Notes under the pieces: generated by a model
The model's database searches: none
The model's input: the letters and a program-made list of their open reading frames with translations, nothing else
What the model was told of the DNA's origin: nothing
In this document: positions 1 through 58,560 of the stretch, in pieces
Position numbering within the stretch: position 1 is the first letter of the stretch
How the letters are laid out: every line of letters starts with the position of its first letter
Position numbers and translations under genes: made by a program
NCBI GenBank assembly: GCA_029582265.1
Contig: CM055822.1
Coordinates: 2,973,057-3,037,056 of the forward strand
Reading direction: 5' to 3'
DNA length: 64,000 nt
Source of the DNA: Zoroaster sp. YZ-2022
Lineage: Eukaryota > Echinodermata > Asteroidea > Forcipulatida > Zoroasteridae

Positions 1-1937
1 GGAGAGTCAAGGTCCAAGTGAACAACTTCCAAAATACAGACACTGACAAAAACCTAAAAACTAGATCTGGATTATCAGATTTTGTCACTTCAGTTCAGAC
101 ATCTTCACAATTTGAAGTTGGGCCTTGTAACACAAACAGGGGTAGAATGCCAGTCATTGCAGGGGAGGCATTCACAGCAGAGGAGCACGTCGATGCTGCT
201 CACAGCATGATTGCTTTAACATCTCAGGAAAACCAAGCTGAAATTGTGAACACTGTTTCATCTATCTCAAGTCCTCTTGAAAAGGGTGTCACTGAAAAGC
301 TGTCAGTGTTAACTCGGGAATCATATTTAAGTCCTGCAAGAAGTAAACTTCTACAGACGATAGATGTTGAGCGAGTGTCTTGCAAGAAATTGCCATTGCC
401 CATTCAGGAAGCTTGTATAGCCCTACAGGTTGAAATTGAAAATGTAATTGAAAGAGTGCCTCCAATAACCTCAGAGTTAAACATTGAAAATGAAGAAGAC
501 ATCCTAAAAATCCCAAAACGAAGTGAGTTTATTCAAGAAGAACAAATGAATAACAATACAGAAAATGCATCTGCTTTTAAAAGAAAAATACTCATTTCAG
601 AGACGATGGGAAGTGACTCTTTGAAAGGAGCAAAGCGACCTTGCAAATGTGAAAAGAGTCCACATTATGAGAAAGATATCTCCCAGCCAAACACTAATAC
701 TCAATCTGTGATTGAAGGACAAGAAAAGTCTTCTGGTGAGCCAGAAGGAGTGTTAGAGGAGACTTTCATTCCACTGGATATGTTCTCCGAGGAGGACAGT
801 GTTGTGAAGTTCTTCATGAACATCATTGAAGACAGTTCTGTGCCTTTCCAGTGCAAGCTGTGCAGCAAGAATTATGAAAGCTACGACTCTTTGAAGCGGC
901 ATCTACAGACCCATTTGGTGCACAACTCCTTCCGTTGTCCCCTGTGTAAGGACTGCTTTGAGTCTCTGGACAGCCTCAAATTCCATATTCAGGAGCATTA
1001 CGAAGAGTCATACAGCTGCTCTGGTTGCTCTGCCTTCTTTTACAACAAGAGTGATCTTCACGCACATTATAGAGAGTCGCATACAGCCCTGAAGGAGTTC
1101 ACATGTGATCTGTGCAACATGACTATTTCTGGTCAGGCTGAGTACGTCGGCCACCGTGAAACGGTCCACAGTGAGAAGTCTCTTGTTAGATGTACGCACT
1201 GCGGGGAACAGTTCAGCAATACAAACATGTTGCTGCTGCATACTCTGAGCTGTTCATTGCGCAAGATGCGGTGCTGCAAGGAATGCAACTTCTCGGCCGA
1301 GACGGCGCAGAGCCTCCAGGACCATGTGAGAGACTCTCACCTCAGGGCCAAGTTCTACAAGTGCACCCTCTGCGATTACAAATCCTCTGCCAAGAACGGG
1401 ATCAAGAACCACATGAAGTTCCATGCCACGGAGAGACCGTACAAGTGCCAACTTTGCAGCTTCATGGGCGCGTACCCACAGAGCCTCCGGTCTCACATGA
1501 GGATGCACAACCAACCAGACTGGCGCCCTGACTGCCTTCCATCAGAGCTTCCTGAGCAGTACATGTGCAAGTTGTGCTGTTACACCTGCAACTACCTTCC
1601 TTCCCTGAAGTCTCACATGTGGCGCCATGCCAGTGATCCTAACTACAGCTATAAAGGTGATCAGGATTCTGGCACCGACATGCCAACTGTGGACAGCAGC
1701 TCTGCCCAAGCCATGGCAGAAGCCTCCCAGCAACAGGGTACATCTACACAGAGCAACCAAGCCACTCAAAGCCTACAGCAAGGGTCAGAGGTCAAGTGTA
1801 ATGTGGTGACCTTTTGCTGCCAAGAGTGTGGTCTTCAAAGCACAGACAGAGACATACTTGTGGACCATCTTAAAACACACCTTCCTCAGGAGATGATAGA
1901 TGCAGACAAACATTCAAAAGAAGAAATAAAGAAATGA
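1..1937 (+). CDS. ZNF507: ZNF507-like C2H2 zinc-finger protein, C-terminal part (5' partial)
   Basis: The frame is open from the window edge (first whole codon at 3) to TGA at 1935-1937. No true start is visible: the GTG at 18 is an ordinary in-frame codon, so this is the 3' end of a larger coding region. Counting from 18, residues 1 to about 275 are polar and acidic with no fold I recognise. Ten finger units follow from about residue 277 to 630. Most are C-x2-C...H-x3-5-H; the fifth ends in Cys (C2HC). The last three match vertebrate ZNF507 in order: a CDY-type finger, a finger whose helix reads SLKSHMWRHASD, then after a Ser/Gln-rich spacer a final isolated finger starting FCCQECG. Human ZNF507 ends with the same SLKSHMW-type finger, a spacer and a lone FCC finger. 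Fingers known from the N-terminal half of ZNF507 would lie upstream. Role: nuclear, probable DNA binding; the family is poorly characterised. The assignment comes from remembered family sequence, not a search. Confidence 0.8.
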   Translation, partial: RVKVQVNNFQNTDTDKNLKTRSGLSDFVTSVQTSSQFEVGPCNTNRGRMPVIAGEAFTAEEHVDAAHSMIALTSQENQAEIVNTVSSISSPLEKGVTEKLSVLTRESYLSPARSKLLQTIDVERVSCKKLPLPIQEACIALQVEIENVIERVPPITSELNIENEEDILKIPKRSEFIQEEQMNNNTENASAFKRKILISETMGSDSLKGAKRPCKCEKSPHYEKDISQPNTNTQSVIEGQEKSSGEPEGVLEETFIPLDMFSEEDSVVKFFMNIIEDSSVPFQCKLCSKNYESYDSLKRHLQTHLVHNSFRCPLCKDCFESLDSLKFHIQEHYEESYSCSGCSAFFYNKSDLHAHYRESHTALKEFTCDLCNMTISGQAEYVGHRETVHSEKSLVRCTHCGEQFSNTNMLLLHTLSCSLRKMRCCKECNFSAETAQSLQDHVRDSHLRAKFYKCTLCDYKSSAKNGIKNHMKFHATERPYKCQLCSFMGAYPQSLRSHMRMHNQPDWRPDCLPSELPEQYMCKLCCYTCNYLPSLKSHMWRHASDPNYSYKGDQDSGTDMPTVDSSSAQAMAEASQQQGTSTQSNQATQSLQQGSEVKCNVVTFCCQECGLQSTDRDILVDHLKTHLPQEMIDADKHSKEEIKK

Positions 1938-2752: not shown

Positions 2753-4988
2753 TTATACATGTATTTACATGCATGTACCTAGTCAGTTTCTCTTGTACTG
2801 TTAATGTATTTATACATGTATTTACATGCATGTACCTAGTCAGTTTCTCTTGTACGTGTACATGTACTTACATGTATACATGTATTTATACATGCATGTA
2901 CCTAGTCAGTTTCACTTGTACGTGTACATGTACTTATACATGTATTTACATGCATGTACCTAGTCAGTTTCTCTTGTACGTGTACATGTACTTATACATG
3001 TATTTACATGCATGTACGTAGTCAGTTTCTCTTGTACGTGTACATGTACTTATACATGTATTTACACATGTATTTACATGCACGTACCTAGTCAGTTTCT
3101 CTTGTACGTGTACATGTACTTATACATGTATTTATACATGCATGTACCTAGTCAGTTTCACTTGTACGTGTACATGTACTTATACATGTATTTACATGCA
3201 TGTACCTAGTCAGTTTCTCTTGTACGTGTACATGTACTTATACATGTATTTACATGCATGTACCTAGTCAGTTTCTCTTGTACGTGTACATGTACTTATA
3301 CATGTATTTACATGCATGTACCTAGTCAGTTTCTCTTGTACGTGTACATGTACTTATACATGTATTTATACATGCATGTACCTAGTCAGTTTCACTTGTA
3401 CGTGTACATGTACTTATACATGTATTTACATGCATGTACCTAGTCAGTTTCTCTTGTACGTGTACATGTACTTATACATGTATTTACATGCATGTACCTA
3501 GTCAGTTTCTCTTGTACGTGTACATGTATTTATACATGTATTTACATGCATGTACCTAGTCAGTTTCTCTTGTACTGTTAATGTATTTATACATGTATTT
3601 ACATGCATGTACCTAGTCAGTTTCTCTTGTACGTGTACATGTATTTATACATGTATTTACATGCATGTACCTAGTCAGTTTCTCTTGTACGTGTACATGT
3701 ACTTATACATGTATTTACATGCATGTACCTAGTCAGTTTCTCTTGTACATGTACGTGTACATGTACTTATACATGTATTTACATGCATGTACCTAGTCAG
3801 TTTCTCTTGTACGTGTACATGTACTTATACATGTATTTACATGCATGTACCTAGTCAGTTTCTCTTGTACGTGTACATGTAGGTAAAACTTGTAGCTTTG
3901 CATGGTGAGGATGATAAGTAAGACTAATTGCGGTGACACCATGTGGAATCTCAATTGAGTAGTACATGTACTTATACATGTATTTACATGCATGTACCTA
4001 GTCAGTTTCTCTTGTACGTGTACATGTACTTATACATGTATTTACATGCACGTACCTAGTCAGTTTCTCTTGTACGTGTACATGTATTTATACATGTATT
4101 TACATGCATGTACCTAGTCAGTTTCTCTTGTACGTGTACATGTACTTATACATGTATTTACATGCATGTACCTAGTCAGTTTCTCTTGTACGTGTACATG
4201 TACTTATACATGTATTTACATGCATGTACCTAGTCAGTTTCTCTTGTGTACATGTACTTATACATGTATTTACATGCATGTACCTAGTCAGTTTCTCTTG
4301 TACGTGTACATGTATTTATACATGTATTTACATGCACATACCTAGTCAGTTTCTCTTGTACGTGTACATGTACTTATACATGTATTTACATGCACGTACC
4401 TAGTCAGTTTCTCTTGTACGTGTACATGTACTTATACATGTATTTACATGCACGTACCTAGTCAGTTTCTCTTGTACGTGTACATGTACTTATACATGTA
4501 TTTACATGCACGTACCTAGTCAGTTTCTCTTGTACGTGTACATGTACTTATACATGTATTTACATGCGTACCTAGTCAGTTTCTCTTGTACATGTACTTA
4601 TACATGTATTTACATGCATTAGTCAGTTTCTCTCGTGTACATATTTATAAATGTATTTACATGTACCTAGTCAGTTTCTCTTGTACGTGTACATGTATTT
4701 ATACATGTATTTACATGCATGTACCTAGTCAGTTTCTCTTGTACGTGTACATGTACTTATACATGTATTTACATGCACGTACCTAGTCAGTTTCTCTTGT
4801 ACGTGTACATGTACTTATACATGTATTTACATGCACGTACCTAGTCAGTTTCTCTTGTACGTGTACATGTATTTATACATGTATTTACATGCATGTACCT
4901 AGTCAGTTTCTCTTGTACATGTACGTGTACATGTACTTATACATGTATTTACATGCATGTACCTAGTCAGTTTCTCTTGTACATGTAG
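2753..4988. repeat. 58-bp satellite array, roughly 37 units
   Basis: Head-to-tail copies of a 58-bp unit containing CCTAGTCAGTTTCTCTTGTA followed by alternating ACATGTA and TTATACATG words. The register is kept almost throughout, with small variants: CATGCATG or CATGCACG, TCTCTT or TCACTT, and occasional 8-bp length changes. The unit is rich in self-complementary ACATGT and GCATGC words. One foreign insertion, an inverted S150 fragment, interrupts the array at 3880-3963. Apparent reading frames inside are by-products of the repeat. Confidence 0.95.
3880..3963 (-). mobile_element. S150 fragment inside the 58-bp satellite
   Basis: The reverse complement matches the 3' two-thirds of S150: the CTACTCAATTGAGATTCCAC segment, CACCGCAATTAGTCTTACTT, and the CACCATGCAAAGCTACAAG tail. 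The hammerhead-like 5' part is absent. Satellite sequence resumes directly on both sides. Confidence 0.85.
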
Positions 4989-7558: not shown

Positions 7559-8015
7559 TGTAGTTACCTTTTAGAATCAACATTTTTTGGTGCTTATTCT
7601 TGTAGATTGGTAGTTTATAAAAATTCATGTAAATATTTTACCTGTAAATTATCTATTTTGTTTGCCTATTTACCTTCATTTAGGTATTTTTATTTTTTTT
7701 AAATTTGTTTTGCTGGTTTTGATCAGGTTATGTAGGTTTCAAGGCCCAAACATTCAGATTGGGGAAGTTAAACAATCATGTAAACATTCTCAAGTATGAC
7801 TGTTTTAATGCCAGGGGTGTACCAGGGGTGTAGACCATACCAGGGGTATTTCATGGCAGGCAGCACTGTTTATGTATATACATAGTTTTTATTTAATTTG
7901 ATTTCCACATTACATTAAGCATGGATAACTTATACAGAGGAATAAGACTAGAAATGTAATAATGCCTTGCATCAAAATACCAACAAATAAATATTAATAA
8001 TACAATTGTTAGTTA

Positions 8016-8130
8016 GTTGTAACCTCCAGTTCTTTTCAGAACTAATTACTCCTCAATTGAGAATTCAAATGGTGTCGCCGCAAATAGTCTTTACTTATCC
8101 TCTTCATCATGCAAAGATACAAGTTTTAAT
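8016..8130 (+). mobile_element. S150 copy, 5'-truncated and diverged
   Basis: It starts at GTTGTAACCTCCAGTTCTTT and runs through the CTCAATTGAG hairpin to the ATGCAAAGATACAAGTTTTA tail. The hammerhead-like segment is missing. Confidence 0.85.
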
Positions 8131-9466
8131 TATTTGTTAAATATCGCCTCAAAGATGTCATTCTTTCTGCCATAGAATACTGTACAAGTGTGTGACGCAT
8201 CTACTGACAGGGAGGATATACCATGTCACACATGACACCATTTTGTTTACAAAAGAACCCATAAATTCATGGGTGGCAACAGGAAATCTTTTTTTTTTTA
8301 AATATTAAGAAAATTGTCAATGGATAATATAAAAGATAAACAAAAATGTGTGAAAATATGATGCAGTTATAGTTACACAATTTTTACAAAGTCCTAAAAA
8401 AAATTAATTCATCCTTTGCAAGCAGCTCGAGCACCAATTCCCCTTATTTTTACACGGATACACCAAATGCGTTTATGAGAGATTTCATGTGCGAGTTGTT
8501 TAAATGTTAACTTAAAAAATGAACACGTATTTGATTGACTATGTGTTAAAATTTAATGATTGTTTGTTTTAAAAAATGTAAATGAGAAACAAGTTGCCTC
8601 ACTAATAAATTAATCAAGTGCATGAAATTTGTTATGTTGTTTAATATTTAGTTTCTAGATTTCTAAAGACTCAAGATAAATAAGACATTAATAATGTATC
8701 TGATCGGCCACTCCAAAACCCCAATACATTTTATCCTATTTCAACAATAAAAAGTGTCATAATTAATATATGACAGGACACACCATAATCCATAAACCAA
8801 TGTTTATAAGACAGCAGACCAATACACTGTACATACATTTGTACACGTACAAATGTACGCATTTTTGTCGATCAGTAACAGTTCAAGCACGTGTGTTTTG
8901 TTTACATGCTGTAAAAGGCTATGTCTGGGCTAATTAGGTCATCTGACATGCGTAGTTAGTTCATTGACGGAAGTCTGGCAGTGTGGGATGCTGTGAGTAC
9001 GAAGTGAAGTGTGTTGCCGAGCTCAAACATTTCAAGAAAGAGTCCAAAAACTCCAAGTGGAACCTCAGAATGAATACTTTAAATGGTGGACAGGCCCATC
9101 TTGCAGTCCAGCGTAAGTGCGCTCTTCGGAATGGTAAACAGGCTGGTATCCTAAACAAAAACTAAAATCGCTTGTAGTTCCAATCGTCCAGTTTCCGGAC
9201 AGTATTTTTCTATCATCAGGTCTTATCTCCCTTGTTACTACAAACATGGATACCTCCATGCTACAAATGACAAAACAGTAACGTTACTAATGTTAATGTT
9301 ACTAGCCTTCGCCTATGAATCCCCCCCCCCCCGCAGGGGCTCGTATTCCAGGGGGACAGGGGTATAAATCATGTCTCCATATATTCTGTCAAATGCAATA
9401 ACGGTATAATAGCCCCCCCCAACAAAAAAAAATAATAATAATAATACTAGGCCTAATCCCATTCTC
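8131..9466. other. Intergenic sequence
   Basis: Mostly AT-rich with no gene found. It contains a short palindromic patch near 8838-8862 (ACATTTGTACACGTACAAATGT) and a C-run at about 9320-9333. Two short overlapping frames around 8961-9259 lie on opposite strands and have no recognisable motif. Confidence 0.4.
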
Positions 9467-9580
9467 CTGAGGACAATCAACTAATTACTACTCAATTGAG
9501 AAATTCACATGGTGTCACTGCAATTACTTTCCTTCCTCCATGGTCTTATCCTCACCATGCAAAGCTACAAGTTTTACTTT
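9467..9580 (+). mobile_element. S150 copy with internal deletion
   Basis: CTGAGGACAATCA joins directly to ACTAATTACTACTCAATTG, so the stem II hairpin and the second hairpin are lost. The tail CACCATGCAAAGCTACAAG is intact. Its end is the integration target of the 3260-bp element that follows. Confidence 0.85.
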
Positions 9581-10134: not shown

Positions 10135-12406
10135 TAGGCGCGTCAAACACTTTTATCCCACTAGACAAGGTGTAACAACATGAGAATTTGCAATTTTTGT
10201 GTTGATATTTAGAGACTTTAAGTATAAGAAAGCAGCTTATTTTTGATATAAAAAAATCTAATCCTTTATTTACTAGAATGCGAAAGAAAAATTCGAAAAT
10301 ATTTTTAAAATACACGATAAATAGCATTCTGAATTTCCCACCTCCCGCGCTCCCGGCTTGTCTCGAAACAACGTTACCAACGCATCTGAAGCCTCCAATT
10401 TTCAACGTGACATTTTAGCTGGAAACAGTTGTCGTATCTAGTCGAATGCGGGTGCCAAAAATAAAGCCTGCTTTGCAAGGAACTGATTTCTACGTGCGCG
10501 TTATCGATAGGCGAGTCGGGGGGTGCAGAAAAACATATTTTAAAAACAATGCCAATTTCGCAAAACGCGGCACCATAAACCGAAAGTACGAACGATAATC
10601 CATCCCCACATGAACTCTGAATGAAATCAGACGTCATTTTCCAGTAGATAATACGAGATATAATCGCATGTTTTTCTTCAGACGGAAGCAATTTTTCACG
10701 ACCGCCACGGTAACGCGGAGTCACACACACGATGCAGTTGACCGAGCGAGAGAGATCTACGATCACTCGTTAAAAGTGTCAGACTTTCTCCCGAAAATCA
10801 ACATGAAATTGCCAGGATTTTGGAGGAAGATGGTGATTACAATTTCTTGAACATTAACATATGTTATAAAGTGGAATTTATTTGTATATACATTAGTTCT
10901 TTTTGTCTCAATTTATCGCTATTTTAATCCGAAGATTTGAAAGATGCCGATTCGGTGCGTGCATGCTGCATGAACTATAGCGTTTGCAATACGATTGTAA
11001 TGCGCATGTGCAGTAGGCTACTTGTGGTGTGAGGATTGCATGCAATACGATCGTGCAGCGCATGTGCAGTAGGCCACTTTTTTTGGATAAACAATGGGGA
11101 AGAAAACAGTGCACAAATCAATGGGGAAACTGCAAATCAATTTTAACTTTTTACTTTTTCATGCAATTTGCCCCCAAAAACAACTTTACAGATTATTAAA
11201 TTTGGAGATAAGAGCTATGATAAAGTTAAAATATATGATTTTTGTTTTTTTAAGTTTGAAGGATTTAAAAAAAATATAACTGGCCTCACACAGAAATTTA
11301 CTTTTAAAAAAAGAAAAGAAAAAGAAAAATAATCGGTGAAAATTCATACTTTTTGACTGGATCATGCACAGCATTTGCTTTGAAGTGGGACTGGGACAAT
11401 GGAGATTTGAAATTATTGTCAAGATTTATAAATTCTTGTCATTATTTATAACTTTATGAATATATAATGATATAGGATTTAAGGCTTTGCATGGTGGGAA
11501 ATGGTAATTAGGAAAGTTTTCGGAAGCACCATGTAACAAATCTCTAAAGTAGAGGTGTTGGCTCTGAGAAGAGCTGGTTTGCAACGTTTCGGCAAGTATG
11601 CTCTGGCCGTCGTCAGGAGAATGAATAAATATATAATTAGCTTATTGTAATGAAAAACAAGGCTTTTGATCCTAAATTACCTGTGAAATTATTATAATTG
11701 TTTTCTTTTACTTTGAGTATATTGGTATCCAAATGTTTACTCAATGACCAAATTTGAGTGGAATAGGATTGACAGAACTTAACTTATGACATTTTTGCAT
11801 ATTTAATTAGCCGGACTTAGTCTCCAGAGCAAAAAAAAAGGAAAATTTGGTGTTTAAACCCAAATTTATGCCAGTTTTACACAACCATTAATGTTCTCAG
11901 CACATTTATACTTTAAATATGAGTAACAAAGACTCAGAATATGCAAAATGATTCACAAGATCCTCTACAATCATTATGAAAAGGATACTTAAAATATGCA
12001 AATTTTGAGAATTTACTGTGATTTCGGCTTAAAAAAGGTCCGTTTTGGCACTTTAAGGCTTATTTAGTGAGCTATATCTTCATAATGTGATGTATCCTCT
12101 GGAAAAAACCCACTGATATGACAAATATAGGCAACATACATACAAGAAAAGGTGAATTGAAATGCTTGATTAGGTGTAAATAAAATAAATGAGATGGTAT
12201 AAAAACATTTTTTGTTTATTGTTGCTTTGTTGACATTTGTTGTCTAGGGAAACAGCACATTCTGAAATCTTTATCGGACCACAACTTGGTAACACCTTGA
12301 CCAATTTTTAAAATTAAGTGTTCTGTAATCTACTCACCAAGCCCTTTAAGAAAATTCCAACATAACTTCATATAAAGCAATTTAAAATTTTTCATTGTCA
12401 ACCCTA
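10135..12406. mobile_element. 2272-bp insertion splitting a SINE, unknown class
   Basis: TTATGAG precedes it (10128-10134) and follows it (12407-12413). The insert begins TAGGCGCG and ends CAACCCTA, a possible very short TIR. The SINE body itself contains tandem GAGCCTTAT words, so the duplication is suggestive and not proof. The first 700 bases are CpG-rich compared with the surroundings. A coding-like stretch on + at about 10769-10852 includes ENQHEIARILEEDGDYNFLN, but it has no start and I do not recognise it. A diverged S150 copy lies inside at 11483-11616 on the minus strand. Confidence 0.5.
11483..11616 (-). mobile_element. S150-B: diverged relative of S150
   Basis: On the minus strand it starts CTGACGACGGCCAGAGCATA, continues CTTGCCGAAACGTTGC, then the hairpin GCTCTTCTCAGAGC and the hairpin CTCTACTTTAGAG, and ends CACCATGCAAAGCC. 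Landmarks, order and spacing equal those of S150, although the primary sequence between them differs widely. The stems are kept by compensatory changes. Confidence 0.8.
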
Positions 12407-17330: not shown

Positions 17331-17906
17331 ATAAAACATACTGCAGGATACAAGCCTGATAACTTACGTATTACAATGAATGACAAATGTAACATCCTCA
17401 TTTCCTCTTTCAACACAAGAAAAAATTACTTTAGCAGAGAAGAGTGTATGACCATTGCAGTTGACCATTGAGTTGTCATAGAAAATCCTCAAACTTTCCC
17501 TCCAAAATGATAACCTTTAACACCTTTCCACCATCAGCTTACATGTATATCCATACCTAACCTGTGTACTCAACTTTCAACTCTAATTCTTTTCATATTA
17601 AAATTAACCTTATGAATGTGCAAATTAACCTGTGGGACTCCCAGGTCAGGAATCTAACCTACCATTGTAATGATTCCAGTGTTTGATGAGCTTGGAAGCC
17701 ATTGTATTGTATAACCCAGTTTCCTCATTCAACCCAAGGCAGTCATGGCCTGCAGTGGGTTAATAATCCTCTAATTATATTCACACTAAATACTAAAGAA
17801 AATTCACTGAACGTAGCATATTTAAACAATAACAATACTAAATGGAATGGTACCATCATTTGTTTGTTTGATATTTCCTGAGCAGAATGCCATAACATTT
17901 ATTGAA
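17331..17906. other. Intergenic sequence
   Basis: No feature recognised. Confidence 0.4.
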
Positions 17907-17962
17907 TAAGTAAGACTAATTGCGGTGACACCATGTGGAATCTCAATTGAGTAGTAATTAGT
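17907..17962 (-). mobile_element. S150 fragment
   Basis: AAGTAAGACTAATTGCGGTG and GTGGAATCTCAATTGAGTAG are the reverse complement of the central part of S150. Confidence 0.85.
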
Positions 17963-18072
17963 GGTTTTACAATGTTAAAGTGTTAACTCTTTTTATACAG
18001 GGCCTTCAGGGATAGCAGTTTTTTTAACTGATGAGGCTACCCTGTTTAAATAAAACTGATTATTATTATTAT

Positions 18073-18181
18073 ACCTCCAGTTCTTTTCAGAACTAATTAC
18101 TACTCAATTGAGATTCCACATGGTGTCACTGCAATTAGTCTTACTTATCATCCTCACCATGCAAAGCTACAAGTTTTACCT
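18073..18181 (+). mobile_element. S150 copy, 5'-truncated
   Basis: It runs from ACCTCCAGTTCTTTTCAG to CAAGCTACAAGTTTTACC-type tail, directly after an ATTATT run. The hammerhead-like part is absent. An (AAAC)n microsatellite follows at about 18222-18245. Confidence 0.9.
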
Positions 18182-19189: not shown

Positions 19190-19210
19190 ATCTTTTCTTT
19201 CATGTTTCAG
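19190..19210 (+). promoter_or_regulatory. Probable 3' splice acceptor before the ZFP64 exon
   Basis: A pyrimidine-rich tract (TCTTTTCTTTCATGTTTCAG) ends in AG at 19209-19210, five bases before the ATG at 19216. Vertebrate ZFP64 has its first coding exon end just before the DIHICGICK finger, so an upstream exon is expected. A second AG lies at 19213-19214. Confidence 0.65.
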
Positions 19211-19215
19211 TCAGT

Positions 19216-21867
19216 ATGGACCAGATGGCTGATATCCACATCTGCGGCATATGCAAATCCCAATTCTCCTCTATCGATATCTTCCTCAGTCACAAGAGAT
19301 CTGGATGTCCCACGAAACAGAACCACCATCTCACCGGTCTCCTGATTGCCAACCCTTCTAGACATGTACCCCAGCTGTGTGGTGCCATGATAACTCCCAT
19401 ACCAACCAATGTTCTCCCTTGCATTCCATCCTCAAGAACATTAAGAACATCACGAAGGAAGCCAATTCTCCTGGCAGCTACGCCTAAGCTTGTCCAACCT
19501 ACACCATCTAGCAAGAGCAGTCCAGGCCAATCAGGTGATGTGAATACTACTTTATGCTCAGGACTGACCCTTAAAGATGCAGCCCCGGGGCTCCCGCAGA
19601 CCAACAATAATGCTCTAACACTCTTCCCTGATATAGCTGAAGAGAGTATAACTGAAAGCAATGTTGCACAGGAGACAATCGAAGGTGGTCAAATTAAATC
19701 TGGGCTAACAGGCAAGGGAAAGTGTACTGTAAAACCCAAATGTTATGTGTGTACACATGAGGGATGCGGCTTTACAACGGCACACTTGAAAGATATCCAG
19801 CGACATGAAAGGATTCACACTGGGGATAAACCCTTCCTCTGTAACTTCTGTCATCATCGTTTCACCCGGAAGGACAAGCTTCAAATCCACCTGCGCACAC
19901 ACAGCGGACATAAGCCCTTTGCCTGCAGCCATTGTAGCTACACTTGCATCGATGGAGGTAGTCTGAAGAAGCACTTACGAACACACACCAAAGAGAGACC
20001 CTTTAAGTGCCAGATATGCTCCTATGCAAGTCGCAATTCCAGCCAGCTGACAACGCACCTTAGGACTCACACAGGGGATGCTCCGTTTCACTGCAATCTA
20101 TGCACTGCCAAGTTCAAGATAAGCACCGATCTGCGACGTCACAAGAGAATACATACAGGTGAGAAACCGTTCAAGTGTCCCTCGTGTTCTTACACCAGTG
20201 CGCTGAACAGTAACTTAAAGTCTCATATGCAGCACAACCATCTGAAAGAGAAAAGCTTCCAGTGTGAGGACTGTAACTTTACCTGTTGCACTAAGAGACA
20301 GCTAAGACAGCATGAGAAGACGCATTCAACACGTCAGCCGATTAAGTGTCTGGAGTGTGATTTCATATGTCTGAACAAACGTGCTTTTAGAAGACATGAA
20401 CGTACGCACAGCAAGGAGAGGCCACACAAGTGCCCGCATTGTTCCTTCGCAGCCAAATATTTCTGCAATATCTCCACACACATGAAGAAACTCCATCCAG
20501 ACCTTCCTAAAGTAAAATTGCAGAAGCAAATGTTAAAATGGACAAGAGTGGGGCAAAACATCAAACCCAAGGAGAAGAAAAAGCCCAACCATCCAAAGCC
20601 ACAGATACTCAGTGGTAAAAAACCATACAGCTGTGATAAATGTGATGCGTCTTTCATGCGCAAGGACTCATTTGCAAGTCATAGACGACAGCATGATCGT
20701 GTATCTAACTCGATGGAGAGCACCGCCTTAGCGGTACTCCAGCTTCAGCAGTTACCCCCCATGCAGTTGTCCCCCATGCAGTTACCCCCCCACTCGACGT
20801 CTACTACTGAATCCTCTATGGAAAATACTGCCAATCAAAACCAGAATAACAATATTATATTTAGTGACTTAAATCCAACACCTTCCAGTGATATTGAAAT
20901 GTTACTGAGCGTTATAAATTCTCAAGTAGTCCAGAGTCCCATATCTAATGATCCAGAAAGACCAGGTGGAAACTCATCCCGAGATGAGGAAACAAGCCAG
21001 GCTGCAACTGCAACCGTTTCCCTTCAAAAACAGTCTAAGCTGAGCACTTCCTCAGCTGGTAATACTAATACTACTCAGTCAAATTCTCTCATGATCATAC
21101 AACCAGAGGCAGTGAATGGAGACACGGTAACACTGCAGGTTATTTCATGCCATGCTGATGCTTCAAAGGTAGCCCCAAACCAGGTCTGTGGCGGATTCAA
21201 TGTTTCAGGACAGAATGTTGTTATACAGAAGCTTTCAACGACCCCAAATCAGCAATTACCGCAGTCAGATCAGCCAGTGACACCGACTATTCAACAGACC
21301 AGCAAGCAACATGTACCCGGTAAGGTAAATCAAACCCCACATATTACCGTGCCCACAAATAAATCTCGGAGAATCGTCCTACCACAAGTTGTCACCAGAT
21401 CCTCCTTCCCTACAAAACGCAATGCTCTTGATAATCTGTCCTTCACTGGAAACTCTCTTTTGCAGGGGTTGCTCAATTCGAAGAGCATCCAAGGCACAAG
21501 ACAACATCCAAGGCCTGTGGCTCAGCAGTCATTTCTACAACAGAACAGCAGCACATCCTCACAAGCAGCTAACCACTTACTGGAAGATGCAATGCGGTCA
21601 TCCACAAGTCTCTTACCCGATACAAGCATGACCTCTCCACAGATAAGTCAACGACCTCTCCTGACACAGCAGAATGTGTTTATGGGTAGCAATCAGATGC
21701 AGACATGTATTCAATCACAGCGTCACGTGACGGCCACCAGGACTAATCGTTTACCTTCTACAGCAAGTACTCTTCAAACTCTTACTGCGTACAGTTCATG
21801 GAATGCTCACATTAGTTCACAAATGGGCCAGTTTATTCCACAGCTGTTGCCACAACATGATCATAAC

Positions 21868-21907
<40 letters not shown>

Positions 21908-22236
21908 TGGTACCAGCAACAACGGAACTCACTGGTGTGCCTGTACCAACAAGTCATTCCCTGGCGATGGACACACTCGCTCATCAGGCCATGACCCATT
22001 TGCAGCAAGCGCAGTCACAACGGCCACAAACCATTGAACAAACGAAACACAGTGTCATATTCCCACAGAGCAGTATCCTTAATATTCCTCAACTTGCTTC
22101 AGTCTCTGCATACAGTAGCCTCATCTCATCCAGTGTGACAGGAGACAAGATGAACAATACGAACGCCATGTCACTTAGAATGAGAACACAAGGCACTGTC
22201 CTGCCAACCACACAATCAAGTACCAGTTTCATTTAG
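19216..22236 (+). CDS. ZFP64: ZFP64-like C2H2 zinc-finger protein
   Basis: A 1006-residue uninterrupted frame. Residues 6-31 form the diagnostic N-terminal C2HC finger DIHICGICK...HKRSGC (C10, C13, H26, C31). Nine C2H2 fingers run from about 176 to 430: the first is C-x4-C as in ZFP64, and the SYASRNSSQLT and AKFKISTDL helices match the vertebrate protein. A tenth finger (YSCDKCDASFMRKDS) at about 471-493 also matches. Residues 500-1006 are Q/S/T/N-rich with about 13 glutamines at 885-897. Vertebrate ZFP64 is near 680 residues, so this tail is much longer. Role: nuclear sequence-specific transcription regulator. The ATG at 19216 sits just after a probable splice acceptor, so the real start may be in an upstream exon that I could not identify; if so, this is the last coding exon. 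The gene is complete at its 3' end (TAG). Confidence 0.9.
21868..21906 (+). repeat. CAG/CAA polyglutamine tract
   Basis: Thirteen consecutive CAG or CAA codons in the ZFP64-like C-terminal tail. Mixing of CAA with CAG slows repeat expansion. Confidence 0.95.
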
Positions 22237-32177: not shown

Positions 32178-32314
32178 GGGGGGAGCTAGGGGGGCTATAC
32201 CTTCCTCCCTCCTATTTTTTTTTTTTAATTTAATAAAAAATGTTATTAATTAAAATATGTGCATATAAAACAAAAACATAATGCAATCAGCATTTCCCAG
32301 AGTCCGGCATTCTC

Positions 32315-32435
32315 CTGAAGATGATCAGAGCATACTGATCGAAACATCGTGGTGTAACCTCCAGTTCTTTTCAGAACTGACTCCTGTACTACTCAATTGA
32401 GAAATTCACATGGTGTCACCGAAAATAGTCTTTAC
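32315..32435 (+). mobile_element. S150 copy, 3'-truncated by MT2
   Basis: The hammerhead-like core CTGAAGATGATCAGAGCATA then CTGATCGAAACATCG, followed by the AGTTCTTTTCAGAACT hairpin. It runs into the TTAA of MT2 at 32436. Confidence 0.9.
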
Positions 32436-32686
32436 TTAACCAGTTCGCGTCGGGAATAAAAAGGTTTTTCTGGGCCCCTGTGCGGGTTTCTTTTTCCCAC
32501 ACACACGTTAATGGAAGCTTCCACAGCTCGTGGCCACGTCTTCCAAGCATGTCACCGTACACGCGTGGCTCAACCAAGCATGCATACCAATATTCCAGAG
32601 TTTCCTCTGGCGTGTTTAGACGCTCTCCGATCCGTGGTGCAAAAAAAAATTGCGTGTATACACGGCCTCCGACGCGAACTGCTTAA
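32436..32686 (+). mobile_element. MT2 MITE with TTAA ends
   Basis: TTAACCAGTTCGCGTCGGG to CGACGCGAACTGCTTAA, with TTAA at both edges. It is most like the copy at 22460. Confidence 0.85.
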
Positions 32687-38566: not shown

Positions 38567-39234
38567 TTAAGGGAAGGTACAGCATCGGTAATGTTGACAA
38601 AACTGCTTCTATGAGTATGCTTACTCTCTTTGAATCAAGATATACATTGAAGGGAAGGTACAACATTGGTAATGTTGGCAAAACTGCTTCTATGAGTATG
38701 CTTACGCTCTTTGAATCAAGATATACATTGAAGGGAAGGTACATGTACGGTACAACATTAGTATTGTTGGCAAAACTGCTTCTATGAGTATGCTTACTCT
38801 CTTTGAATCAAGATATACATTGAAGGGAAGGTACAACATTGGTAATGTTGGCAAAACTGTTTCTATGAGTATGCTTACTCTCTTTGAATCAAGATATACA
38901 TTGAAGGGAAGGTACAACATAGGTAATGTTGACAAAACTGCTTCTATGGGTATGCTTACTCTCTTTGAATCAAGATATACATTGAAGGGAAGGTACAGCA
39001 TCGGTAATGTTGGCAAAACTGCTTCTATGGGTACGCTTACTCTCTTTGAATCAAGATATACATTGAAGGGAAGGTACAGCATCGGTAATGTTGGCAAAAC
39101 TGCTTCTATGAGTATGCTTACTCTCTTTGAATCAAGATATACATTGAAGGGAAGGTACAGCATCGGTAATGTTGGCAAAACTGCTTCTATGGGTACGCTT
39201 ACTCTCTTTGAATCAAGATATACAAAATATACTC

Positions 39235-39351
39235 CTGAGGACGATCAGAGCATACTGATCGAAACGTCGAGTTGTACCTCCAGTTCTTTTCAGAACTAAT
39301 TACTACTCAATTGAGATTCCACATGGTGTCACCGCAATTAGTCTTACTTAT
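39235..39351 (+). mobile_element. S150 copy inside the U81 array (first)
   Basis: CTGAGGACGATCAGAGCATA, CTGATCGAAACGTC, then GAGTTGTACCTCCAG through AATTAGTCTTACTTAT. The distal tail is missing. Confidence 0.95.
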
Positions 39352-39688
39352 ATACATTGTAGGGAAGGTACAGCATCGGTAATGTTGGCAAAACTGCTTC
39401 TATGGGTATGCTTACTCTCTTTGAATCAAGATATACATTGAAGGGAAGGTACAACAGGTAATGTTGGCAAAACTGCTTCTATGGGTATGCTTACTCTCTT
39501 TGAATCAAGATATACATTGAAGGGAAGGTACAGCATTGGTAATGTTGGCAAAACTGCTTCTATGGGTATGCTTACTCTCTTTGAATCAAGATATACATTG
39601 AAGGGAAGGTACAGCATTGGTAATGTTGGCAAAACTGCTTCTATGAGTATGCTTACTCTCTTTGAATCAAGATATACAAGATATACTC

Positions 39689-39804
39689 CTGAGGACGATC
39701 AGAGCATACTGATCGAAACGTCGAGTTGTACCTCCAGTTCTTTTCAGAACTAATTACTACTCAATTGAGATTCCACATGGTGTCACCGCAATTAGTCTTA
39801 ATTA
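39689..39804 (+). mobile_element. S150 copy inside the U81 array (second)
   Basis: Nearly identical to the copy 454 bp upstream, with almost the same left junction (ATATACTCCTGAGG) and right junction (ATATACATTG). Confidence 0.95.
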
Positions 39805-41037
39805 TATACATTGAAGGGAAGGTACAGCATCGGTAATGTTGGCAAAACTGCTTCTATGGGTATGCTTACTCTCTTTGAATCAAGATATACATTGAAGGGA
39901 AGGTACAACATACATGTAGGTAATGTTGGCAAAACTGCTTCTATGGGTATGCTTACTCTCTTTGAATCAAGATATACATTGAAGGGTAAGGTACAGCATC
40001 GGTAATGTTGGCCAAACTGCTTCTGTGGGTATGCTTACTCTCTTTGAATCAATATATATACATTGAAGGGAAGGTACAGCATCGGTAATGTTGGCCAAAC
40101 TGCTTCTGTGGGTATGCTTACTCTCTTTGAATCAAGATATACATTGAAGGGTAAGGTACAGCATCGGTAATGTTGGCCAAACTGCTTCTGTGGGTATGCT
40201 TACTCTCTTTGAATCAAGATATACATTGAAGGGAAGGTACAGCATCGGTAATGTTGGCAAAACTGCTTCTATGGGTATGCTTACTCTTTGAATCAAGATA
40301 TACATTGAAGGGAAGGTACAACATCGGTAATGTTGGCCAAACTGCTTCTGTGGGTATGCTTACTCTCTTTGAATCAAGATGTACATTGAAGGGAAGGTAC
40401 ACCATCGGTAATGTTGGCCAAACTGCTTCTGTGGGTATGAATACTCTCTTTGAATCAAGATGTACATTGAAGGGAAGGTACACCATCGGTAATGTTGGCC
40501 AAACTGCTTCTGTGGGTATGCTTACTCTCTTTGAATCAAGATGTACATTGAAGGGAAGGTACACCATCGGTAACGTTGGCCAAACTGCTTCTATGGGTAT
40601 GCTTACTCTCTTTGAATCAAGATGTACATTGAAGGGAAGGTACACCATCGGTAACGTTGGCCAAACTGCTTCTATGGGTATGCTTACTCTCTTTGAATCA
40701 AGATGTACATTGAAGGGAAGGTACAACATCGGTAACGTTGGCCAAACTGCTTCTATGGGTATGCTTACTCTCTTTGAATCAATATATATACATTGAAGGG
40801 AAGGTACAACATTGGTAATGTTGGCAAAACTGCTTCTATGGGTATGCTTACTCTTTGAATCAAGATATACATTGAAGGGAAGGTACAACATTGGTAATGT
40901 TGGCAAAACTGCTTCTATGAGTATGCTTACTCTCTTTGAATCAAGATATACATTGAAGGGAAGGTACAACATTGGTAATGTTGGCAAAACTGCTTCTATG
41001 GGTATGCTTACTCTCTTTGAATCAAGATTATACATTA

Positions 41038-48139: not shown

Positions 48140-49952
48140 ACGCTACTCAGCTGCCAGAAAGTTTTTACTAAGCTTGGCTGATTACTTAGTGTGTTTATGT
48201 TTAACAAAAGGATTTGCTTAGTGTGTACAATTATATGAATTTGGCTGCAGAAATCAATGGAAAATATAGCGTAGTGAACAGTACTGGTATCGGAGTTGTT
48301 TTGAGGTGTCCTCCAAGGATCCTGATCAAAAAGAAATAAACCAAACAAGCAAACAATCAAAAATATTCACAGAAATTCTTGGAATAACACAAACCATTGC
48401 AAGCTTTCAAATGACTTCACATAATCAGAAGATTGTACAATTGATCAAACCCAAATAATTGATAGGAAAAAAACAAAAAACATACAAGTACTATTTGGAA
48501 TACATGTAGTTTGATTTGAACATTGTACTTGTGTCAACAATTTAAAAATAAAATGCGATTCCAATGATTTACGCATAAGTACACAAACAATTCTTTCTAA
48601 TTCTACATGCAGAATTGTTAAGATTTAATTTTGGTGCGCTAATCCTCTAACATGTGTATATGTAATGTAGATTTTCCGTCCTTTAGCCTGTCGAGAACAT
48701 TCCAAGTTGGAAGTTCAGTGCACTATGTCATCGTTTTGTGGTAGGTCACTGCCATAGGACAGGGTGTAATAACATTTGATTCTGCCTAAAAATAGAAATA
48801 AAATCAGTGTAGTGTTAGGGGATTACATTCTCTGTCACCAACAGAATAATCTGTGACTTACAGTGGACAGAATGGCACCAACAAATGACATGTGCTATAA
48901 TGCCTTTTAGGGGAGGGGAAGGGGGAGGGGAGGGTTGTTGATGCTTGATTTTTTTATTTCCTTGGCAAGCGTTTGCTTGCTTAGTGGATCGTTGACATGG
49001 GAGACAAGGGGTGGGGATTGATAAAATAATGCAAATCATAGATAATTTTAAAAAACGTCATTACAATCAAAGATTGAATTGCATCCTAATACATTTTTAA
49101 AATAAATACACAAAAAAAAATGTTTTCAAAACCCTCAAAGAGCAATAACAAAACAAACCAATAAACAAACAAACAAGACAATGTTAACAACATTCCATGC
49201 ACCACTCCACCCACCATACCCTTTCCCCATGCAGGTCTCTCCCCCTTCCCTACCCCAACAATTAATATTGCATGAGACTATCGGTGTTATCTGTAATCAT
49301 GCGAATACTATGAAAAGCTTGTCTTCCTGTATGGGCATGCATACTTGCATTTCAGGCTGCATAAATAATGTATACAGAATGTATACAAAACGGTGCACAG
49401 CCTGGTTTATAAACAATTTAAACAAATAAAGCTGTTTTATAACAATTACACCTGAAACACTTTATTTTTTGTACTACTTTCCATACCATAGGGTATGTAC
49501 ATGCAGCGTAAGTTTGAAGAACTCTTCTGAAACTGCTATCTTATCACAGCGCCACCATCTGACCAATGTGGACCAGGGGAACTACATCTTTAGATGCATG
49601 ATTCTTGCTTCATCAATAATAATAATAATATATAATTTTTACAAGCACAGTTCCCATACTGTCCCAATGCACTTTACATACATGTACACACTTGGCCAAT
49701 AACATTCTTCATCAGCTCCCTGCTACTTGTATATCCAGCCTTGAGATGATTGATTCATTGATTGAGATGATTGTAAAAAGTGTTACCCATTGGTCAGATT
49801 TGCCTTTATCATCAACCAATCAAATAACCCTGGATGGAACTTATAGCCAATCAGAGCAACGTGTAGACTCATCTGTATATCCCCTGTGTTAGTTTATCAG
49901 GGGAATTGTCAGTACATGTTCAAGTATGATTATGTAAAATGTACACATTTTC
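48140..49952. other. Intergenic sequence
   Basis: No gene recognised. The short frames at 49181-49892 are AT-rich and without motifs. A small (AAT)n lies at about 49615-49630. Confidence 0.4.
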
Positions 49953-50072
49953 CTGAAGACGATCAGAGCATACTGATTGAAATGTCAAGTTGTAACCACC
50001 AGTTCTCTTCAGAACTAATTACTACTCAATTGAGGATTTTCACATGATTTCACCACAAACAGCCTTTACTTA
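49953..50072 (+). mobile_element. S150 copy, diverged
   Basis: CTGAAGACGATCAGAGCATA, CTGATTGAAATGTC, AGTTCTCTTCAGAACT hairpin, CTCAATTGAG. The stem is kept with one G-T wobble. The distal tail is absent. Confidence 0.9.
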
Positions 50073-58384: not shown

Positions 58385-58397
58385 AAAGGTTCCAAAC

Positions 58398-58547
58398 CTG
58401 AGGACGATCAGAGCATACTGATCGAAACGTCGAGTTGTACCTCCAGTTCTTTTCAGAACTAATTACTACTCAATTGAGATTCCACATGGTGTCACCGCAA
58501 TTATTCTTACTTATCATCCTCACCATGCAAAGCTACAAGTTTTACCT
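58398..58547 (+). mobile_element. S150, full-length reference copy with 13-bp target duplication
   Basis: It runs from CTGAGGACGATCAGAGCATA to GCAAAGCTACAAGTTTTACCT. AAAGGTTCCAAAC is at 58385-58397 and again at 58548-58560. Hairpins: CGATCAG/CTGATCG around AGCATA; AGTTCT/AGAACT around TTTC; CTC/GAG around AATT. It has no poly(A) tail and no reading frame. A duplication of this length fits target-primed retrotransposition. Confidence 0.95.
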
Positions 58548-58560
58548 AAAGGTTCCAAAC

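Follow-up and report, generated by a model that had tools for sequence, protein, structure and literature searches.

A 150-bp repeat with a hammerhead-like motif as a probable terminal part of a Penelope-like element

The window (the whole 64-kb stretch of DNA analyzed, corresponding to C7:2973057-3037056 of the 1.0-Gb host genome that was searched) contains a 150-bp repeat, here called S150, at 58398-58547. The repeat opens with CTGAGGA, C, the hairpin GATCAG-AGCATA-CTGATC, GAAA, C, GTC, and GAG, and the same letters, AAAGGTTCCAAAC, lie on either side of it, forming a 13-bp duplication (58385-58397 and 58548-58560). The following features were assigned to this copy, with the basis of each assignment; positions within S150 are counted from its first base.

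58385-58397, no strand: left target-site duplication (match to AAAGGTTCCAAAC)
58398-58547, plus strand: S150, the probable pseudo-LTR (pLTR) and tail of a Penelope-like element (PLE) in a 5'-truncated insertion (target-site duplication, identical genome copies, and longer copies reaching a reverse transcriptase [RT]/GIY-YIG-like ORF)
58398-58404, plus strand: 5' part of the hammerhead core, CTGAGGA, C3 to A9 (sequence)
58405, plus strand: extra pyrimidine at the junction of A9 and stem II (sequence; extra bases in other hammerheads)
58406-58423, plus strand: stem II hairpin (compensated pairs in the divergent 11616 copy)
58424-58431, plus strand: GAAA core, zero-loop palindrome A-C-G-U replacing stem III, and H17 (sequence; layout shared beside GIY-YIG genes)
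After 58431 (C34), plus strand: predicted cleavage site (sequence)
58432-58434, plus strand: 3' strand of stem I, GAG (partner CTC upstream of CTGA in copies retaining CTC)
58445-58460, plus strand: hairpin AGTTCT-TTTC-AGAACT, resembling the histone 3' UTR stem-loop (Rfam Histone3, below the gathering score)
58515-58547, plus strand: optional 33-bp tail (copies end at about 117 or 150)
58525-58527, plus strand: likely ORF start codon, MQSYKFYL (N-termini of three relatives)
58548-58560, no strand: right target-site duplication (match to AAAGGTTCCAAAC)

The original prediction, made from the sequence of this locus, described CTGAGGA, a hairpin, GAAAC, and GTC at 58398, and all these elements are present as described. 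An element starting exactly with CTGAGGA is an accurate description of the 58398 copy, which lacks the CTC partner of stem I, but not of the others, which begin a few bases upstream (CATTCTC-CTGA) or extend 1.4 kb and more. The upstream ACTC and downstream GAGT that had been pointed out in the array copies at 39235 and 39689 are both there. The type I core CUGANGA...GAAA, stem II, and UH17 are all represented, and the divergent 11616 copy retains the core. Matches to the loose pattern CTGANGA-N(7-37)-GAAA number 15 in the window, compared with 4.56 expected. A descriptor consisting of CTGANGA, zero or one nucleotide, a flush stem of at least 4 bp, and GAAA matched five places in the window, every one an S150 copy, whereas the average was 0.29 matches over 200 versions of the window simulated with a first-order Markov model; for a stricter descriptor (stem of at least 5 bp, then C[GA]TH or TGTH), the simulated mean was 0.005. 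The five matches belong to one family and thus count as one independent occurrence. The comparison of the descriptor with the simulations, together with the sequence itself, bears out the proposal of a hammerhead-like core.

A search with nhmmer using the 58398 copy as the query identified 11 S150 copies in the window, with 3' ends at about 117 or 150 and several shortened at the 5' end. Besides the query, these are as follows (found with nhmmer unless another basis is given).

39229-39351, plus strand: tail-less copy in a tandem array of 81-bp units
39683-39805, plus strand: tail-less copy in the same array, 454 bases onward (454-bp super-period)
32309-32440, plus strand: older tail-less copy, with the core CTGAAGAT
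49947-50070, plus strand: tail-less copy with the duplication AAATGTACACAT (nhmmer and flanks)
9461-9577, plus strand: tailed copy in which an internal deletion removes most of the hammerhead and the hairpin
11474-11622, minus strand: divergent older member (the 11616 copy) that retains the core, with stem II rewritten and the start MQSLKSYI
17906-18181, no strand: head-to-head pair around another segment (near-duplication ATTTATT[GC]AATA outside)
17906-17962, minus strand: tail-less inverted piece of this pair
18069-18181, plus strand: tailed piece of this pair
8015-8128, plus strand: 5'-truncated copy beginning at position 36
3881-3964, minus strand: 5'-truncated tailed copy from about position 67, with the duplication TACATGTAC (nhmmer and flanks)

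The near-duplication outside the head-to-head pair matches at 11 of 12 positions, and the segment between the two arms is one that we take to resemble a LINE 3' end. Comparison of the flanks revealed no clear duplication at 32315, 9467, 18069 alone, or 8015. Target-primed insertion was suggested by the truncation pattern and by the duplications flanking the copies at 49953, 3881, and 58398. The 81-bp array that contains two of the copies spans 38569-41036, has super-periods of 243 and 454 bp, and includes an open frame (...FESRYTLKGRYNIGNVGKTAS...). At one locus elsewhere in the genome (L182), the S150 tail is followed by sequence of the same kind as this array.

Genome-wide, 40 copies were scored from 614 S150 candidates. 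Fourteen of these, counting the 58398 copy itself, match at all 150 bases, three are identical but 1-2 bases shorter, and 23 are 99% identical. The last 27 bases of the tail occur 5,989 times in the genome (2963 + 3026), with no occurrences of the reversed pattern used as a control. By contrast with the variable 5' ends, the 3' ends are fixed, at about 112-121 in tail-less copies or at 150 in tailed ones. A tail-less neighbor in the opposite orientation, ending at 112-120, accompanies 10 of the 40 scored copies, and an adjacent direct neighbor was found for one. A second sample was drawn from 100 listed tail matches, all on one contig (C1) and not selected by 5' end; with a 7-match tandem array and two already fetched loci set aside, 91 loci were read, which reduce to 70 unique insertions, 60 of them with 25 or more upstream bases available. 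An inverted partner was found for 23 of these 60 testable insertions. Around S150 copies, 12 longer stretches were fetched, and six of these (L191, L193, L194, L195, L196, and L199) contain an inverted tail-less piece; in all six, matching duplications of 9-14 bp lie outside the head-to-head pair, their exact length being ambiguous where target and element share letters. In L195, the head-to-head inverted repeat reaches 1.79 kb with 99% identity. An automatic exact-match test detected duplications in 12 of 36 insertions, compared with one of 36 mismatched pairs. The S150 core had no match in the viral contig or genome contig collections searched, and a text search of the literature for the S150 letters yielded no match.

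Upstream of S150, 25 of the 40 scored copies share a common sequence (AGAGTCCGGCATTCTC with single changes) by eye, a count that includes apparent duplicated loci (L178/L179/L181 and L186/L187); a strict script recovered 23 of the 40, missing L139 and L188, which have a variant inside the core probe. The shared upstream part breaks off at distances between 35 bases and more than 1.4 kb, forming a 5'-truncation series. In L122 and L139, it consists of an ORF that encodes YVDDTF and GVYRIPCECGKVYIGETGR, and the longest ORF read (L195:438-2051, minus strand) matches the Pfam RVT_1 domain at 9.8e-10. Residues resembling a GIY-YIG domain (GVYRIPCECGKVYIGET...LKEH...SAIVKH) are visible in the upstream ORF; Pfam did not call GIY-YIG on the L195 or L122 ORFs even at E 10. 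Relatives occur in echinoderms and insects, with the nearest named one, at 75%, from Asterias amurensis, and most of the 120 listed contain RVT_1 and PF26215. Seven of them (P0132, P0137, P0153, P0163, P0201, P0204, and P0227) contain the GIY-YIG domain PF01541, six together with RVT_1. The tentative assignment of a GIY-YIG domain to the element itself is based on the visible residues and these relatives.

The tail of S150 reads ACC ATG CAA AGC TAC AAG TTT TAC CT, that is, MQSYKFY(L), and that of the 11616 copy reads MQSLKSYI. Among seven relatives read, three have similar N-termini, MHSLKSHL (P0123), METFKEHL (P0131), and METFKDYI (P0135), and the remaining four (P0121, P0122, P0130, and P0141), which may be partial or fused gene models, start differently. 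Compared with MHSLKSHL, MQSLKSYI matches at 5 and MQSYKFYL at 4 of 8 positions, a short match in either case. The S150 tail is probably the start of the element's ORF; among the copies read, none joined a direct 5' pLTR to the tail and the ORF without interruption. A possible continuation of the ORF downstream of S150, AACCATAACTACCC, seen in five of the 91 loci (L206, L224, L231, L237, and L242), was rejected: in the two such loci fetched, another repeat follows, one that includes a tandem array with a 48/96-bp period, not a PLE body. An array of 48-bp units downstream of a PLE end, at L295:1098-3488, lies within another repeat common to L296.

Taken as a whole, S150 most likely (with a probability of about 93%) comprises the terminal pLTR and optional tail of a protein-coding PLE that would use internal priming and carries a minimal hammerhead; the insertion at 58398 then appears to be a strongly 5'-truncated PLE end. 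The suspected link to Penelope elements is thus upheld by the RT ORF upstream of the longer copies, the two 3' ends, and the inverted partners, whereas the inferred identity as a 150-bp non-autonomous element is not, given that 25 of the 40 copies continue upstream, the longest into the RT ORF. The pLTR would end at about 117 and begin near -7, with the tail comprising 118-150. By analogy with the Anolis PLE, the RT-endonuclease of the element might bind its own RNA near the pLTR/ORF junction and cut the target DNA. Reverse transcription would begin internally on this RNA, at either of two fixed sites (about 117 or 150), and copying would proceed upstream for a variable distance, yielding 5'-truncated insertions, often joined by a tail-less head-to-head second copy and flanked by duplications of 9-14 bp. 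In the 58398 copy, the last base copied would have been the first of the hammerhead core.

PLEs of this kind are already known. The PLE of Anolis carolinensis, PAc, of the Penelope/Poseidon type, contains a two-stem hammerhead (I and II) where the pLTR meets the ORF, an internal RT start in a stem loop that lies 111-118 bp inside the ORF, and an optional tail of 30-40 bp between two RT start sites (PMC11167929). The element described here resembles PAc in encoding an RT and GIY-YIG(-like) protein, in having a stem-III-less hammerhead by the pLTR/ORF junction, and in having two 3' ends 30-40 bp apart. Unlike in PAc, the likely ORF start of S150 lies 93 bases past the predicted cleavage site rather than at stem II, and an extra C follows A9, the two elements being compared by layout and not base by base. 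For Adineta vaga Penelope elements, a shorter inverted pLTR, a 31-bp tail, duplications of 9-10 bp, and foreign sequence between the pLTRs are reported (PMC3846280). S150 shares with those elements the inverted shorter 5' pLTR, the optional tail, the short duplications, unrelated sequence between pLTRs, and, likely, the extension of the pLTR into the start of the ORF; it differs in the length of the pLTR (about 124 bp, given the 5' limit proposed above, vs 181-218 bp there) and in a copy number in the thousands.

The 5' ends of the insertions were analyzed in the 70 unique insertions derived from tail matches on C1. Twelve of the 70 extend at least 17 bases further upstream, 37 start at positions 4-110, and 21 start within the 11 positions from -8 to +3, compared with 5.1 of 58 expected under an even distribution (P = 8e-9). 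This hot spot explains why 150-bp copies are common. Our preferred explanation, which we rate only slightly above even odds, is that the hot spot reflects a transcription start in the pLTR, with S150 made from a short run-off RNA, or else a stop of RT at the 5' edge of the hammerhead. Along with the 21 starts, a head-to-head pair in which both arms begin at -4 (L265) and the presence at the hot spot of GGCATT with TTAA about 28 bases upstream are consistent with such an origin; GGCATT is presumably an Inr-like motif. The start-site and RT-stop versions look alike in these sequences, and the former is the one that we would favor. On the other side, stops at 26/27, suggested as a candidate by partners in three selected copies (L137, L190, and L196) that start at 26-27, were not repeated: none of the 37 insertions of the second sample stops at 26-28, at the 3' base of stem II, a null limited by those three copies.

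The same sample bears on cleavage. Two of the 37 insertions begin exactly at position 35, immediately 3' of the predicted cut (0.35 expected, P = 0.047), and only one of the two (L267) is clean, with an adjacent duplication and a start ambiguous by one base. The interval 34-36 showed no significant excess of 5' ends among the 37 insertions (P = 0.28), and the interval 35-42 includes six starts vs 2.8 expected (P = 0.055). The insertion 5' ends thus offer no firm indication that cleavage takes place in vivo.

The hammerhead of S150 appears to be of the minimal PLE kind, with stems I and II and an ACGU palindrome in place of stem III. This palindrome has no loop, so that pairing is possible solely between two copies; stem I, CTC/GAG, is found in several copies, with 60% of the cells paired. 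In this respect, S150 resembles the small dimer-acting PLE hammerhead variants with stems I and II and a vestigial stem III reportedly described by Cervera and de la Pena in 2014 and by Lunse and colleagues in 2017. A stem I of 3-4 bp, a stem II of 6 bp, the extra base, and the palindrome imply that the active form, if any, would be a tandem-RNA dimer and/or protein assisted. Between A9 and stem II, S150 copies have an extra C or T, which the original prediction noted correctly as a deviation but which does not disqualify the motif, being a recurrent natural variant. As a control, viral contigs were scanned for CCTGANGA-N(16-26)-CGAAACGTC, which produced at least 121 matches, with 85 unique cores among the matches listed. 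Of the listed cores, 10 have a stem II of at least 5 bp (nine complete type I hammerheads and one type III), 68 have a stem II of at most 2 bp (five complete type I and two type III), and seven fall between 2 and 5 bp. Six of the 10 complete hammerheads listed in the first group have a single additional pyrimidine following A9, ahead of stem II; extra-pyrimidine three-stem hammerheads were observed at L061, L055/L065, L078, L105, L108, and L023. On another viral contig (L046), two type-P5 twister ribozymes (1318-1377 and 1810-1867, minus strand) lie near a complete hammerhead motif.

Extra bases recur beside PLE genes as well. A genome search for GIY-YIG gave 145 matches, with 150 scored of 403 candidates, and 30 loci were fetched; 20 of these contain a total of 22 CTGATGA-N(14-20)-GAAA-GCT motifs, not all with perfect stems. 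The commonest of these motifs has an extra A after A9, AGCU for stem III, A as H17, and GCCT/AGGC as stem I, the counterparts in S150 being an extra C, ACGU, C, and CTC/GAG. Near one GIY-YIG match (L145, minus strand), we observed another hammerhead type, CCC-CTGATGA-A-GGTGC..GCACC-GAAA-GCT-T-GGG, also with an extra A. The extra base, treated as a defect, therefore recurs both in complete hammerheads and beside PLE genes.

No Rfam family reached the gathering score anywhere in the window, and no Rfam hammerhead was found at E up to 10 in the three stretches scanned. The covariance-model check proposed for the motif hence returned no hit, but it fails as a refutation. At the gathering score, Rfam recognized no hammerhead in 12 viral-contig loci; at E 10, applied to five of the viral-contig loci, it found L008, which has no extra base, at 28.4 bits (gathering score, 34) and missed all four extra-base hammerheads tested (L055, L061, L105, and L108). 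Given these misses, the silence of Rfam on S150 says little, and we rejected it as an argument against a hammerhead.

Comparison of copies lends modest support to the structure, through a single sequence: the 11616 copy keeps CTGANGA, GAAAC, and the loop, with stem II rewritten by two compensated pairs and one mismatch, and its hairpin at positions 48-63 shows one compensated pair and one lost. Across copies, the hammerhead pairing has 90.8% of the cells paired, a value reached by 101 of 500 shuffles; its double-sided changes were reached by 17 and its covariation score by 6 of 500. A competing helix formed by GAC and GTC around the core has 97.7% of the cells paired, and two of 500 shuffles reach its paired cells, double changes, or covariation score. 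Its one double change is compatible with CpG decay, and a C-to-T change accompanied by G-to-A in the 32315 copy was not counted as compensation, both changes fitting CpG decay. The GAC/GTC fold fits the copies better than the hammerhead pairing and is a possible structure of this region.

We place the odds that the S150 ribozyme is active at about even. That the hammerhead is an inactive relic or passenger, in which the extra base, the weak stem I, and the missing stem III abolish cleavage, is a serious prospect to which we give somewhat less than an even chance. Such inactivity would agree with the better pairing of the competing fold and with the lack of a firm cleavage-site peak among the 5' ends. 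Cleavage in the Anolis PLE is protein assisted and dispensable for insertion, and no reads start at the cleavage site (PMC11167929). Extra core bases can weaken hammerheads (PMC11014351 and PMC3088659), the former paper linking such a base in a viroid hammerhead to weak cleavage. Against a relic, the extra base is common in the complete viral-contig hammerheads and occurs beside GIY-YIG genes here, and a viroid (CChMVd) hammerhead has an unpaired A after A9, where S150 has its extra pyrimidine (PMC3705267). Furthermore, most PLE hammerheads have no helix III, and their cleavage may occur in dimers (PMC7761336 and PMC6155905) or with the help of protein (PMC11167929).

An independent 150-bp non-autonomous retrozyme or SINE, whose trans mobilization would use small circular RNAs generated by hammerhead cleavage, is very improbable: although the starts at -8 to +3 may betray a defined short RNA, tandem pieces exist (the one direct neighbor among the 40 scored copies, four tail-to-70 junctions among 91 loci, and one 12.5-unit array), and metazoan retrozymes of 170-400 nt with type I hammerheads are on record (PMC7229834), 25 of the 40 copies run upstream in a truncation series ending in the RT ORF, the 3' end is fixed while the 5' end is spread, a circle opened after C34 predicts ends at 35 and not at -8 to +3, and the tandem pieces (positions of about 70-150) lack the hammerhead. 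With the non-LTR retrozymes of metazoans, S150 shares a type I core and duplications of more than 4 bp; these retrozymes occur as 150-450-bp units in tandem, carry canonical hammerheads, and have circular RNAs (PMC7229834). S150 differs in that it belongs to the 3' region of a protein-coding element, is mostly dispersed, and lacks stem III; the retrozyme identity originally suggested for it is not supported. The tail-to-70 junctions occur once each in L221, L229, L232, and L233, and the array, in L294 (G000:C1:10446300-10447400), consists of 12.5 tandem copies of S150 positions of about 70-150, 81 bp each; this unit did not match that of the 81-bp array in the window and is unrelated to it.

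As a defined PLE end with about 6,000 exact copies of its tail, S150 preserves a natural record of where reverse transcription begins and ends, in elements whose mechanism is little understood. The hairpin resembling the histone 3' UTR stem-loop (core UCUUUUCAGA; 58445-58460 and, on the minus strand, 11562-11573) is located between the hammerhead and the RT start. Rfam Histone3 scored 16.2 bits in two young copies, the 58398 one included (E = 0.12 and 0.054), and 20.1 bits in the divergent 11616 copy (E = 0.0025), against a gathering score of 34. The core pattern occurs seven times in the window vs 0.05 expected, each time inside an S150 copy. A literature search for the histone stem-loop paired with a transposable element and hammerhead, SLBP/sea urchin, Penelope, or retrotransposon returned nothing. 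A more elaborate and, in our estimate, doubtful proposal is that the pLTR unites a dimer-dependent hammerhead with a tolerated extra base, a histone-type stem-loop for SLBP, two internal RT starts, and its own short RNA, with a 5' end at -8 to +3, inserted by the thousands. If so, use of the stem-loop by SLBP could provide a non-polyadenylated 3' end or serve translation, and insertions that start exactly at the cleavage site, such as L267, would preserve traces of past cleavage by the ribozyme in vivo.

Elsewhere in the window, a long single-frame C2H2 zinc-finger ORF at 19210-22236 is 53% identical to a CTCF-like protein of Asterias rubens, its best named relative, which places the host among starfish or their close kin, and a second zinc-finger ORF is located at the start of the window (3-1937).
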